Origin: Thermodesulfovibrionales bacterium
GTDB taxonomy: Bacteria > Nitrospirota > Thermodesulfovibrionia > Thermodesulfovibrionales > Dissulfurispiraceae
NCBI GenBank assembly: GCA_026415415.1
Contig: JAOAHE010000011.1
Location: 1 to 39,066 of the forward strand
Length of the DNA stretch: 39,066 bases
Direction: 5' to 3'
Translations under genes and position numbers: made by a program
In this document: positions 32,857-36,725 of the stretch, one piece after another
How positions within the stretch are numbered: position 1 is the stretch's first letter
Layout: every line of letters begins with the position of its first letter
Notes under the pieces: model-generated
Seen by the model: only the letters and a program-made list of their open reading frames with translations
Databases searched by the model: none
What the model was told of the DNA's origin: nothing

Positions 32857-33102
32857 TTATTCTTTATTTTCACCTATCTTCTGAAGTAGATCTTTTAGTC
32901 TAATCCTACCGTGTAAAGCCGTCCCATCTTTAAACTCAAGGACAGGGATATCATGTCGATAAAGCTCATATAGCTCATTATCAGTGGTAATGTCAATCTT
33001 CTTAATATAAAGACTATATTTTTCCTCTAATCCATTTAGCATTTCTTGAACTAAATCACAAAGCCAGCATTCTGGCTTATGGTAAAAGGTTATGTGAACC
33101 AT
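32857..33102 (-). CDS. Glutaredoxin-like thiol protein (DUF836 type)
   Basis: A protein of 81 residues. MVHITFYHKPECWLCDLVQE carries the CxxC redox motif (Cys12 and Cys15), followed by a thioredoxin-fold pattern with IKKIDITTDNELYELYRHDI and the cis-proline in IPVLEF. It is likely a small thiol-disulfide protein. I chose ATG 33102 because GGGAG lies 6 bases before it and homologues begin there; an earlier ATG at 33132 adds ten residues without a ribosome site. A terminator (33221–33260) separates it from the flavodiiron gene, so it is not clearly part of the PerR island. Confidence 0.8.
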   Translation of the reverse strand: MVHITFYHKPECWLCDLVQEMLNGLEEKYSLYIKKIDITTDNELYELYRHDIPVLEFKDGTALHGRIRLKDLLQKIGENKE

Positions 33103-33220
33103 AAAGTTCTCCCAAAAATGATATATAATCAAAATTTAAGAGAATTATTAAACCTTAATATTTAAATTTAAACATTTTTACTTTACCAAAGGCATACTAC
33201 ACTTAGTAAGAAAAGAGTTG

Positions 33221-33271: not shown

Positions 33272-34492
33272 TTATGAATCAAATTTTTTATGATACTCTT
33301 TGACTTTTTTCGCAAATTCTTTTCCAAATTCGTAACACTTTAATTCATCTTCAAGAGATGGCTTATAGTTAATCTGAAGCCCAGGTTCAAAAGTTTCTAA
33401 CCCCATTTTCTTAAACTCCTCGTAAGCATTCTTAACAGCACCACCACCCCATCCATAACTTCCAAAGGCACCCACAATACGATTTTTCGGTCTTAAACCA
33501 CTAAGATGATAAAGAATCTGAGCAACTGTTGGGAACATTACGTTGTTTATAGTTGGGGTCCCGAAAAGGGTTCCACGAGACTTCCAGAACTCTTTCACAG
33601 CCACACTCATAGGAGTCGCTCTTAGCTTCATAATCTTACACTCAAGTCCTTCATCTTTAATCCCTTGCATTATAGGGGTTGCCATGATCTCTGTGCTGTG
33701 CCACATTGTATCGTATATAATTGACACAGAAAGTTTTGATTTACCTGATGCCATATCAAGATACATACTAAGAATCTTTTCAGGATGAGAACGCCAGATT
33801 ATACCATGATCAGGTGCTATCATCTCGATAGGAATACCTAATTTTTGAACCTCTGCGATTTTAGACTTAATAAGCTGACCAAAAGGCATTAATATATTAG
33901 CATAATAATCAAAAATTGCATCTTCAAGTTCATACATAGACTCACAAGATATAAATTCATCGTCAAATCTTACTGCTGAAGCTATATGTTGTCCAAAAGC
34001 ATCTTGGCTAAAAAGAATTTTATCCTCCTTAGCATAAGTCATCATTGAATCTGGCCAGTGAAGCATTGGAGTTTCAAGAAATAGTAAAGTCTTTTTTCCT
34101 ATTGAAAGAGTATCTCCTGTTTTTACTATTTTTATATTCCATTTAGATATATCAAAGAATCTACTAAGACCTTTTTTACCTTTCTCGGTTATATAGACAG
34201 TTGCGGTTGGTGTCAAAGACATAATTCTGTCTATACTTGTAACATGGTCATTCTCTATATGATTAATAACCACATTTTTAATCTTTTCAGGGCTAACTAT
34301 GCTCTGAATATTTTTTATAGTTACATCGGCAAAATCTTCTTTAACGGTATCTATTAAGGTTATATCATCATCTATAATAAGATAGTTATTATATGATGTA
34401 CCACGAGGAGTTTCATACCCGTGGAAGTCCCTAACGGACCAGTCTATCGCACCAACCCAAAATATATCCTTCTTAATTTCTACTGCTGTCAT
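33272..34492 (-). CDS. fprA: FprA-type flavodiiron protein (O2/NO reductase)
   Basis: A 406-residue cytoplasmic protein. The metallo-beta-lactamase-like diiron domain (1–250) has HIENDH (78–83), the exact H-x-E-x-D-H iron site, then MLHWPDSMMTY, LFSQDAFG and APDHGIIWR with further iron ligands. The flavodoxin-like FMN domain (about 255–400) has IIYDTMWHSTEIMA and GAFGSYGWGGGAV. Class A flavodiiron proteins reduce O2 to water (or NO to N2O) with electrons from rubredoxin-type partners. The genes just upstream encode two desulforedoxins and a rubredoxin fusion, the likely donors. The ribosome site AAGGAGGT is perfect. It is the last gene of the operon. Confidence 0.95.
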   Translation of the reverse strand: MTAVEIKKDIFWVGAIDWSVRDFHGYETPRGTSYNNYLIIDDDITLIDTVKEDFADVTIKNIQSIVSPEKIKNVVINHIENDHVTSIDRIMSLTPTATVYITEKGKKGLSRFFDISKWNIKIVKTGDTLSIGKKTLLFLETPMLHWPDSMMTYAKEDKILFSQDAFGQHIASAVRFDDEFISCESMYELEDAIFDYYANILMPFGQLIKSKIAEVQKLGIPIEMIAPDHGIIWRSHPEKILSMYLDMASGKSKLSVSIIYDTMWHSTEIMATPIMQGIKDEGLECKIMKLRATPMSVAVKEFWKSRGTLFGTPTINNVMFPTVAQILYHLSGLRPKNRIVGAFGSYGWGGGAVKNAYEEFKKMGLETFEPGLQINYKPSLEDELKCYEFGKEFAKKVKEYHKKFDS

Positions 34493-34510: not shown

Positions 34511-34645
34511 CTATTTACACTCATAGCCCTCACCAATAAGAGTCATTTTAGCATTACAACAGACTAAATCGCCACCACCAGCATTAGTGACTACAACTTC
34601 CTGCTCACAAATATTACATCTATATTTCTGGCCAACTTTTGTCAT
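34511..34645 (-). CDS. dsr: Desulforedoxin-like iron protein, copy 1
   Basis: A 44-residue protein read directly from the minus strand. YRCNIC (Cys10, Cys13) and LVCC (Cys29, Cys30) give the C-x2-C…C-C iron site of desulforedoxin and of the N-terminal domain of desulfoferrodoxin. The superoxide-reductase catalytic domain is absent, so this is a stand-alone electron carrier. AAAGGAG precedes the ATG. It lies 18 bases before fprA and 37 bases after its paralogue; the two proteins share about half of their residues. Electron donation to the flavodiiron protein is inferred from position. Confidence 0.88.
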   Translation of the reverse strand: MTKVGQKYRCNICEQEVVVTNAGGGDLVCCNAKMTLIGEGYECK

Positions 34646-34682
34646 CTTAAAACTCCTTTAATCTAAAAATTAAAATAATCTT

Positions 34683-34817
34683 TTATTTACACTCAAACCC
34701 CTCCCCTATCAACTCCATAAACTTTCCACAACATGATAAAGCCCCTCTACCGGGAGCTGTAACTACAACTTCATTACCACAAATCATACATTTATATTTC
34801 TGTCCTAATTTTGCCAT
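34683..34817 (-). CDS. dsr: Desulforedoxin-like iron protein, copy 2
   Basis: A 44-residue paralogue of the next gene, with YKCMIC (Cys10, Cys13) and LSCC (Cys29, Cys30), the same length and the same ending IGEG-F/Y-ECK. A perfect ribosome site (AAGGAGGTGAT) precedes the ATG. It follows the rubredoxin-fusion gene by 13 bases. Why two copies are kept is not clear: they differ mainly between the cysteine pairs, so they may serve different partners or redox potentials. Confidence 0.88.
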   Translation of the reverse strand: MAKLGQKYKCMICGNEVVVTAPGRGALSCCGKFMELIGEGFECK

Positions 34818-34830
34818 GTATATCACCTCC

Positions 34831-35310
34831 TTAACCTAAATTTTCAAAAGAATCCTTCCCTGCCTTACATACTGGACACTTCCAATCAGATTGCAGTTTC
34901 TCAAAAGGTATACCTTGATCTTTTTCTTTATAGAGCCATTTACATACAGCACATCGCCATACATTATAGTCTTCTCTGTCATGTATACTACTAATAATTT
35001 CCCATCCTCTCTTTTCCCATTCATTAACTGAAGGTGGATAAAAACCTGAATATATTACTTTATCCCTCGCATCATCAAAATCAACCTCAATAATATAACT
35101 ACCTTTTCTTACTTTATATCCCCATTTAAAATTATCTTTAGTAGAAGGAGTTGATGCCTTAGCAGAAAAAGAAAAATGATTACTATTTCTTTTAACCTTA
35201 GAGTAACTATAACAGCAGGGAAGTATAGAGGTACATCCACATTTACCATTTTTAAGCTCCAACCCATCTACTCTAAAACCACCCGGTATCTTTTCTATGT
35301 AAATTTCCAT
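34831..35310 (-). CDS. Rubredoxin fused to a cysteine-rich N-terminal domain of unknown function
   Basis: A 159-residue protein. The C-terminal part (117–157) is a rubredoxin-like domain: WRCAVCKWLY (Cys120, Cys123), GIPFEKL, and DWKCPVCKAGKDSFE (Cys145, Cys148). The glycine of the usual CxxCG knuckle is replaced by lysine on both sides. Residues 1–115 match no family I recognise. They contain KCGCTSILPCC (Cys24, 26, 32, 33), which could bind a second metal, then a beta-strand-like segment KWGYKVRKGSYIIEVDF. Its place between peroxiredoxin and desulforedoxin/flavodiiron genes argues for electron transfer in O2 or peroxide reduction. The ribosome site is weak, and a stem-loop lies between it and the peroxiredoxin gene. 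Confidence 0.8.
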   Translation of the reverse strand: MEIYIEKIPGGFRVDGLELKNGKCGCTSILPCCYSYSKVKRNSNHFSFSAKASTPSTKDNFKWGYKVRKGSYIIEVDFDDARDKVIYSGFYPPSVNEWEKRGWEIISSIHDREDYNVWRCAVCKWLYKEKDQGIPFEKLQSDWKCPVCKAGKDSFENLG

Positions 35311-35375
35311 TAAAACACCATATTAATAATTAATAAATAGCTCTCCTTGAGCTTATTTTTATTTGTTATATATCC

Positions 35376-35410
35376 TTAGCCCCCTACAAAATAGGAGAAT
35401 AGGGGGCTAA
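35376..35410. terminator. Strong stem-loop between peroxiredoxin and rubredoxin-fusion genes
   Basis: TTAGCCCCCTA (35376–35386) pairs perfectly with TAGGGGGCTAA (35400–35410): 11 base pairs, five of them consecutive G-C, loop 13 bases. It starts 14 bases after the peroxiredoxin stop. On the minus strand no T run follows, so it may attenuate or protect the upstream transcript rather than fully stop transcription; on the plus strand TCTTATTTTA follows. Confidence 0.6.
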
Positions 35411-35424
35411 TCTTATTTTAAAGA

Positions 35425-36069
35425 CTATTTTGATATAACATCTTCGCCACCATAGTAACCTTCAAGGGCTTCATAAACCTTACCCACCATCTGAGCTGAT
35501 GGTTTTAAAGTTTTATCTCCTTCATCTTTCCATTTTGCTGGGCATGCTTCTTCTGGATGAGCAGAAAGGTAAAGATTTGCTTTAAATTTCCTCATTAATT
35601 CATCGATATTCCTTCCGATGTTATAGAAATTAACTTCTGAGTTAAAAAGTTTTCCATCTGGGCTGATTATAAAAGTTCCCCTTAAAGCTAAGCCTGTCTC
35701 TTCATCATATACCCCAAACAATTTCGAAACTCTGCCTGTTGGATCTGCACCCATAGGATATTTCACATTTTTTAACATCCCCTCGGATGCTTGCCAAGCA
35801 AGGTGAGTAAACTTTGTATCAGTACTTACTGTTATAACCTCTGCACCAAGATTTTTAAACTTTTCATACTGTTCTGCAAGTGCTGCAAACTCGGTTGCAC
35901 AAACAAAGGTAAAGTCAGCTGGATAAAAAAACAGTATTGTCCATTTTTTATTAGCCTTTAACGTCTCAAGACTAATCTCACCAAAGTCACCTTTTGAAGG
36001 TTCATAAGTCTCCATCTTAAAATTAGGTACATCTTGCCCGACTCTCAAACCACAACAAATTTCTTCCAT
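35425..36069 (-). CDS. Typical 2-Cys peroxiredoxin (AhpC/Prx1 family)
   Basis: A 214-residue thiol peroxidase. PADFTFVCATEF (50–61) carries the peroxidatic Cys57 in the PxxxTxxC setting, Arg130 is the conserved catalytic arginine, and EEACPAKW (174–180) carries the resolving Cys176. The C-terminal YYGG-like tail resembles sensitive Prx1 forms. It reduces H2O2 and organic peroxides; the electron donor would be thioredoxin or, given the neighbours, a rubredoxin-type protein. The N-terminal pair Cys5-Cys6 is an extra. AGGAGGT precedes the ATG. It is encoded 66 bases downstream of the RCKP mini-gene and is likely under PerR control. Confidence 0.94.
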   Translation of the reverse strand: MEEICCGLRVGQDVPNFKMETYEPSKGDFGEISLETLKANKKWTILFFYPADFTFVCATEFAALAEQYEKFKNLGAEVITVSTDTKFTHLAWQASEGMLKNVKYPMGADPTGRVSKLFGVYDEETGLALRGTFIISPDGKLFNSEVNFYNIGRNIDELMRKFKANLYLSAHPEEACPAKWKDEGDKTLKPSAQMVGKVYEALEGYYGGEDVISK

Positions 36070-36260: not shown

Positions 36261-36659
36261 TTATTTTTCTTTAGTTTTACATGACTTACAGATTCCATAG
36301 AAATCTATGTGAGTTGTTGTAATCTCAAAATCCTCTAAATAGTCCTTGGGTACTCTGATATCAAAATCAATATCTACATCAATTATTTTTTTACACTGTA
36401 CACAAATCAAATGGTGATGATGACGAGTGTCAGGATCATAATGCTTCTTATCAGGGTCAATAGTTACTTCTTGTACAAGCCCCATATTTTTAAGAATATC
36501 AATGTTTTTATACACAGTAGCTAACGAAATATTTGGGAATTGTTCAACCACATAATTATAAATATCTTCTACAGTTGGATGATTCTTGTTGCCCTGAAGA
36601 TATTTCATAATTGCCATTCTTTGAGGAGTTTGTTTAAGTCTTAAAGTTTGTTTATCCAT
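36261..36659 (-). CDS. perR: Fur-family peroxide-type repressor (PerR-like)
   Basis: A 132-residue winged-helix regulator. Helix-turn-helix region: TPQRMAIMKYL and NISLATVYKNIDIL. Two zinc knuckles, CVQC (Cys86, Cys89) and CKSC (Cys124, Cys127), give the structural site. By spacing from Cys86, the residues His27, Asp75, His81, His83 and Asp94 line up with His37, Asp85, His91, His93 and Asp104 of Bacillus PerR, the iron-sensing site where histidines are oxidised by H2O2. The aspartate at the Asp85 place favours PerR over Fur. It is the first gene of the defence island, with PerR-box-like elements around its own promoter. Confidence 0.92.
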   Translation of the reverse strand: MDKQTLRLKQTPQRMAIMKYLQGNKNHPTVEDIYNYVVEQFPNISLATVYKNIDILKNMGLVQEVTIDPDKKHYDPDTRHHHHLICVQCKKIIDVDIDFDIRVPKDYLEDFEITTTHIDFYGICKSCKTKEK

Positions 36660-36669
36660 ATCAATCTCT

Positions 36670-36725
36670 TAATAATAATTATTTTCAATTGATATAAGTT
36701 ATCATATAATAATAATTATTGTCAA
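36670..36725 (-). promoter_or_regulatory. perR promoter with paired PerR-box-like operators
   Basis: On the minus strand -35 TTGACA (complement of 36720–36725) and -10 TAACTT with an upstream TG (complement of 36696–36701) are 18 bases apart. The identical 14-mer TAATAATAATTATT occurs at 36670–36683 (between the start point and the perR start codon) and at 36707–36720 (in the spacer, touching the -35). Each matches 11 of 14 defined positions of the Bacillus PerR box. The imperfect palindrome TGATATAAGTTATCA (36690–36704) covers the -10. This fits autorepression. Confidence 0.65.

Follow-up and report, generated by a model that had tools for sequence, protein, structure and literature searches.

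Which function is served by a rubredoxin that carries, on its N-terminal side, a second group of four cysteines in a domain of no recognised family? The question is raised by a gene (34831..35310, minus strand; ATG start, 159 aa) in the window analysed here, the whole stretch of 39,066 nucleotides of contig JAOAHE010000011.1 from a Thermodesulfovibrionales bacterium (Nitrospirota; assembly GCA_026415415.1). Rubredoxin fusions often reveal an enzyme that is fed by rubredoxin. Here the partner domain is conserved and without a library match, and the surrounding operon gives a fair idea of its task, so that its function can be tested directly. The product is a rubredoxin fusion, a known kind of protein, carrying a domain absent from the libraries searched, and a literature search found no published description of this combination. 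Most probably we are dealing with a redox protein, not described before, that takes part in defence against oxygen stress.

The two domains of the fusion protein

The C-terminal domain (residues 118-159; 34834..34959, minus strand) is a member of the rubredoxin family PF00301. Residues 118-155 score 28.7 bits in Pfam against a curated cut-off of 23 (E 1.4e-6), the CxxC...CPxC ligands are present, and the predicted model has the rubredoxin fold, superposing on solved rubredoxins (best VIA-align Z 9.1, rmsd 0.7 Å over 45 residues, 1yk5), which this part also matches by sequence. The original prediction of a rubredoxin at this end of the protein is thereby borne out. Judged from its sequence, the domain would be a short rubredoxin in which one iron is held by four cysteines, with a lysine after the first CxxC. 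Its likeness to the short rubredoxin of Desulfovibrio desulfuricans (6rxn) extends over residues 115-159 in sequence and predicted fold, and includes the CxxC...CPxC arrangement; unlike rubredoxins of the 6rxn type, it is fused to an orphan domain, and members of its family have K or R directly behind the first CxxC, in contrast to the G of the separate rubredoxins encoded at related loci.

The N-terminal domain (residues 1-115; 34966..35310, minus strand) has a cysteine group of its own, as first read in the ORF translation. The stretch KCGCTSILPCC supplies Cys24, Cys26, Cys32 and Cys33, arranged as a C-G-C-x5-C-C loop (codons 24-33; 35212..35241, minus strand). This part had been described as unrecognised, and every library tried, by sequence (Pfam, NCBIfam, PDB) or by predicted fold, was without a match. 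At E values up to 10, residues 1-115 matched 0 Pfam and 0 NCBIfam families; matches in PHROGs were at chance level only (E 0.17 and above), and a 20-sequence profile searched against PDB chains gave nothing better than E 0.8. Profile searching of these residues thus yielded no confident match to a characterised domain.

AlphaFold2, supplied with 10 natural sequences, modelled the whole fusion protein with a mean pLDDT of 87.5. As a fold search with the whole protein was swamped by rubredoxin matches, residues 1-115 were also folded and searched alone. A folded domain was predicted, again with 10 sequences (mean pLDDT 85.4, pTM 0.77), composed mostly of beta strands with one short helix, and with the cysteine loop between strands. 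The best scores of this model were a Foldseek E of 0.24 in the PDB and a VIA-align Z of 2.6 against solved structures, and E 0.32 against viral structures, with no confident match to a known fold; this is to be read as the absence of a match and not as proof of a new fold. Block 21-30 belongs to the regions of lowest confidence in both models (mean pLDDT 62 in the whole-protein model and 69 in that of residues 1-115), so that the models do not settle the geometry of the cysteine loop. The N-terminal half resembles no family tested, and its domain is not contained in the libraries searched.

Several known families and fusions were compared with the protein. Rubrerythrin, flavorubredoxin, class III hybrid cluster protein and other rubredoxin fusions act in defence against oxygen, nitric oxide or peroxide and likewise combine rubredoxin with another redox domain, and rubredoxin-fused chains also appear among the sequence matches of the window protein to solved structures; the orphan domain, however, matches none of their partner domains. 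CDGSH-type iron-sulphur proteins have a ligand loop of three Cys and one His, whereas a conserved His after the loop is absent here. Desulforedoxin (PF06397/TIGR00319), of which two copies are encoded next to the fusion gene, also has a vicinal CC pair. Its spacing is given as CxxC-x15-CC in the available part of one source (PMC3116461), in contrast to the CxC-x5-CC found in every row of our family comparison in which the loop can be read, and hhalign returned a probability of 0.3% with one aligned column. Superoxide reductase, with Fe(His)4(Cys) ligands according to the same portion of that source (PMC3116461), was likewise rejected, since no His occurs among the invariant columns (hhalign probability 0.3%).

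Conservation and distribution of the family

The N-terminal domain was found in 13/100 related genomes, in 29/230 genomes of the class at E 0.001 or better, and in 33/395 genomes of the phylum, the window's own genome being included each time. A scan of named genomes, the sole test of other phyla, relied on short peptide patterns taken from the protein of the window. It recovered 9 loci, each with Nitrospirae, Nitrospiraceae, Nitrospiria or Nitrospira in its title; because such a scan misses divergent members, restriction of the family to the phylum is not proven. No copy of the fusion gene was found on plasmids or in viral contigs.

In 19 aligned relatives the N-terminal domain is 48-67% identical to the window copy and all four cysteines are unchanged, and recurrence at this level of identity with the cysteines kept argues that the domain is not there by chance. 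We compared 38 rows, namely the window and 37 Nitrospirota loci from 36 genomes. L091 (E 0.004) and all class-genome matches above E 0.001 were left out, as were a locus with an assembly gap over the cysteine region (L089) and a decayed remnant (L090); two rows are readable in part, one starting inside the N-terminal domain (L080) and one truncated after residue 50 (L081). Cys24 and Cys26 are invariant in 37/37 readable rows; for Cys32 and Cys33 the count is 38/38. The cysteine group singled out in the original prediction is thus conserved in every row of the comparison where it can be read. Further invariant residues of the domain are K7, T27, K40, K51, W63, D80, D83, K84, W103, R112 and D114. 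The N-terminal domain has a mean pairwise identity of 0.59 (minimum 0.45), the rubredoxin one of 0.65. Of the rubredoxin cysteines, Cys120, Cys145 and Cys148 are kept in 37/37 readable rows and Cys123 in 36/37. At L077:3270-3743 a Ser replaces the second rubredoxin cysteine (WRCAMSKW), as a natural variant or through a sequencing error, and all four N-terminal cysteines are kept.

Every intact copy in the 38-row comparison carries the rubredoxin, and no other fusion partner was found there. Copies without an intact fusion are frame-shifted (L078), truncated (L081) or reduced to a decayed remnant (L090). At L081 and L090 the decayed fusion gene lies next to retained genes of the surrounding island, which indicates that it is dispensable in some lineages. 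Frame-shifted and truncated copies (L013, L015) were left out of two of the family alignments (A2, A3).

The fused rubredoxins also differ from ordinary ones. In 37/37 readable rows the first CxxC is directly followed by K (27 rows) or R (10 rows) and then by W. Separate short rubredoxins compared at 10/33 loci, in contrast, have CxxCGY without exception. The same motif is found in the ordinary rubredoxin that the window's genome encodes elsewhere, which with the fused one makes just two rubredoxins in that genome at E up to 0.01. Standalone rubredoxins were also seen at L078 and L081, but fall below the distance filter of this comparison. A separate ordinary short rubredoxin is present at 10/33 fusion loci or more; a simple donor role of the fusion would thus be redundant. 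As the separate rubredoxins share the short form of the fused domain, the fusion probably derives from one of them.

Gene neighbourhood and promoter

In the window the fusion gene is the third in a series of minus-strand genes. A Fur-family, PerR-like regulator (36261..36659; PF01475; best NCBIfam match NF052545 PerR, at 121.5 bits below its cut-off of 180) is followed by an AhpC-type peroxiredoxin (35425..36069; PF00578; best NCBIfam match TIGR03137, below cut-off), the fusion gene, two desulforedoxins (34683..34826 and 34511..34645; both PF06397 and TIGR00319), a flavodiiron protein of 406 aa without a rubredoxin domain of its own (33272..34492; PF19583 and PF00258; best NCBIfam match NF008887, below cut-off) and a glutaredoxin-like protein (32857..33132; PF05768). 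Pfam and NCBIfam searches of the window ORFs thus agree with the peroxiredoxin upstream and the desulforedoxin and flavodiiron genes downstream that had been predicted earlier; the PerR-type regulator, one gene upstream of the peroxiredoxin and part of the same recurrent island, is an addition to that description. The tandem desulforedoxin genes (34511-34826), directly behind the fusion gene, are without a fused superoxide reductase domain. For the first of them the listed start is GTG, and an ATG at 34817 is the likelier start; it is preceded by a ribosome-binding site overlapping the stop codon of the fusion gene.

Beyond the window, we placed the neighbours of the fusion gene by tblastn at 33 loci, which come from 32 further genomes. 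Within 5 kb, PerR/Fur was present at 23 loci, rubrerythrin at 21, the small orphan protein c2 at 20, FMN reductase at 16, the small cysteine protein c36 at 13, flavodiiron protein and desulforedoxin at 12 each, superoxide reductase at 8 and peroxiredoxin at 7. Six of these genes served as markers (PerR, peroxiredoxin, desulforedoxin, flavodiiron protein, superoxide reductase and rubrerythrin); one or more of them was found within this distance at 27/33 loci, and none at 6/33. The redox-defence setting proposed from the window alone is therefore kept across the family. At 20 loci both flanks reach 3.5 kb or more; PerR/Fur lies within 5 kb at 18 of these, as does rubrerythrin or flavodiiron protein (rubrerythrin at 14, flavodiiron protein at 10), so that no single partner is constant. 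Two long-flank loci, L075 and L079, belong to the six without any marker gene and have neither PerR nor rubrerythrin or flavodiiron protein within 5 kb. As the surveyed genomes contain 0-5 Fur-family matches each, proximity of PerR to the fusion gene by chance was estimated at about 1%. With the 309-408 aa extracted for them, the flavodiiron proteins encoded nearby leave no room for a rubredoxin domain of their own. A broken 47-aa superoxide reductase piece (L060) was left out of one alignment (A5), L081 out of another (A6), and L069, because of an assembly gap, out of the c2 alignment (A7).

The typical island runs perR, c2, c36, fusion gene, superoxide reductase/desulforedoxin/flavodiiron protein, rubrerythrin and FMN reductase, with genes mostly on the same strand and often short gaps. 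It recalls the perR-rbr-rdl operon of Desulfovibrio vulgaris, in which PerR, rubrerythrin and a rubredoxin-like protein occur together, according to the portion of the source available (PMC545781). The likeness is one of gene content, and an N-terminal orphan domain of Rdl goes unmentioned in that same portion (PMC545781).

A conserved palindrome, TTGACAATAATTATTATTA, lies in the perR promoter (36707..36725, minus strand, 0 mismatches to the motif), with a second copy upstream of perR at 36670..36688 (minus strand, 1 mismatch). The general form of the promoter upstream of perR is TTGACAAnAATnATTnTTA...TGATA. With up to 3 mismatches, its first part occurs upstream of perR at 17/23 loci versus 10/1980 random windows from the same loci, a count that is descriptive and not independent of discovery, since the motif was read by eye from the same upstream regions. 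The palindrome is a candidate PerR operator, and its position fits autoregulation by PerR. A general PerR-box consensus gave 31 matches in the window versus 24.4 expected, nothing clearly beyond chance. A strong hairpin (35377..35409, minus strand; fold of 35311-35424, MFE -29.4 kcal/mol, z -2.54) splits the peroxiredoxin from the fusion gene and is a possible partial terminator or processing site; co-transcription of the fusion gene with perR in the window is accordingly likely but not certain.

Possible roles of the N-terminal cysteines

We favour, at a probability of roughly one half, a PerR-linked two-domain redox protein of Nitrospirota peroxide and oxygen defence, in which the iron site of the rubredoxin, together with a further centre made of cysteines, would exchange electrons with diiron reductases. 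The rubredoxin domain would hold one iron in four cysteines and take electrons one at a time, and the C-G-C-x5-C-C loop of the family-specific, mostly beta N-terminal domain would provide the second centre, which is the most likely reading of its cysteines because all four are strictly conserved within a ten-residue loop. This centre would most likely be a metal site, occupied by a single iron or zinc ion or by an iron-sulphur cluster. The two domains may act as one unit, the rubredoxin exchanging electrons with the N-terminal centre; alternatively, the N-terminal domain could dock the rubredoxin onto the diiron oxygen and peroxide reductases of the same operon. We infer that the fusion protein serves rubrerythrin, the flavodiiron protein or both. 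If the four cysteines do form a redox centre, anaerobes would own a component of oxygen defence that is so far undescribed.

The main rival gives the N-terminal domain a catalytic role. Its cysteines would work as thiols and disulphides, and the fused rubredoxin would be a built-in source of electrons, as in rubrerythrin and flavorubredoxin; a disulphide reductase for peroxiredoxin or a peroxide or superoxide reductase would be examples. Rubredoxin is usually fused to the enzyme that it feeds, and here the fusion is obligate in all intact copies, many charged and aromatic residues are invariant besides the cysteines, and a peroxiredoxin adjoins the fusion gene in the window. That neighbour is not constant, however, as it recurs within 5 kb at only 7/33 other loci, and four invariant cysteines in ten residues suit a metal site too; that no known enzyme fold was matched neither supports nor excludes an enzyme. 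On this evidence a catalytic thiol domain is possible but rather unlikely. A bolder proposal, which we put forward tentatively and consider doubtful, is that CGC-x5-CC forms a contiguous cysteine redox centre of a new type, in a new domain fed by the modified rubredoxin fused to it, and that the protein is an anaerobic oxygen-defence enzyme not seen before. It could, for example, turn the one-electron supply of rubredoxin to two-electron thiol chemistry that serves peroxiredoxin, or itself be a novel reductase of peroxide or superoxide.

Structural zinc at the four cysteines, with an N-terminal domain whose sole task is to dock the rubredoxin onto its partner, is the lesser rival. Four-cysteine structural zinc sites are common in small proteins, and the conserved lysines and aspartates could form a docking surface; yet the cysteine proteins neighbouring in the islands include redox-active families (desulforedoxin, rubredoxin), and structural zinc alone leaves the changed first knuckle of the fused rubredoxin unexplained, which makes this reading unlikely. 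An ordinary rubredoxin with a meaningless N-terminal extension, in keeping with a rubredoxin part that passes the Pfam cut-off, is very improbable, being contradicted by 26 invariant columns of the extension among 20 sequences, by its prediction as a folded domain (mean pLDDT 85.4) and by the coexistence of the fusion with separate ordinary rubredoxins.

Through the fusion family a PerR island that recurs in Nitrospirota can be recognised, and a further orphan protein with conserved cysteines is encoded there. This protein, c2 (L072:3800-4252), is about 145-160 aa long; aligned with 18 relatives, it shows a GWRKA end and invariant Cys at positions 2, 9, 11, 35 and 38. The members scanned had no Pfam or NCBIfam match above cut-off, and nothing better than E 0.26 was found in the PDB. 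Kinship of the fusion's N-terminal domain with c2 was rejected by profile comparison (probability about 0.3%). c2 is absent from the window's genome and occurs in 97/230 class genomes; of the 29 that have the fusion gene, 21 also have c2. The third small cysteine protein, c36 (L050:6779-6955 and 12 relatives, about 52-63 aa), has four invariant cysteines as two CxxC pairs, in a zinc-ribbon-like arrangement, and is encoded upstream of the fusion gene at 13/33 loci.
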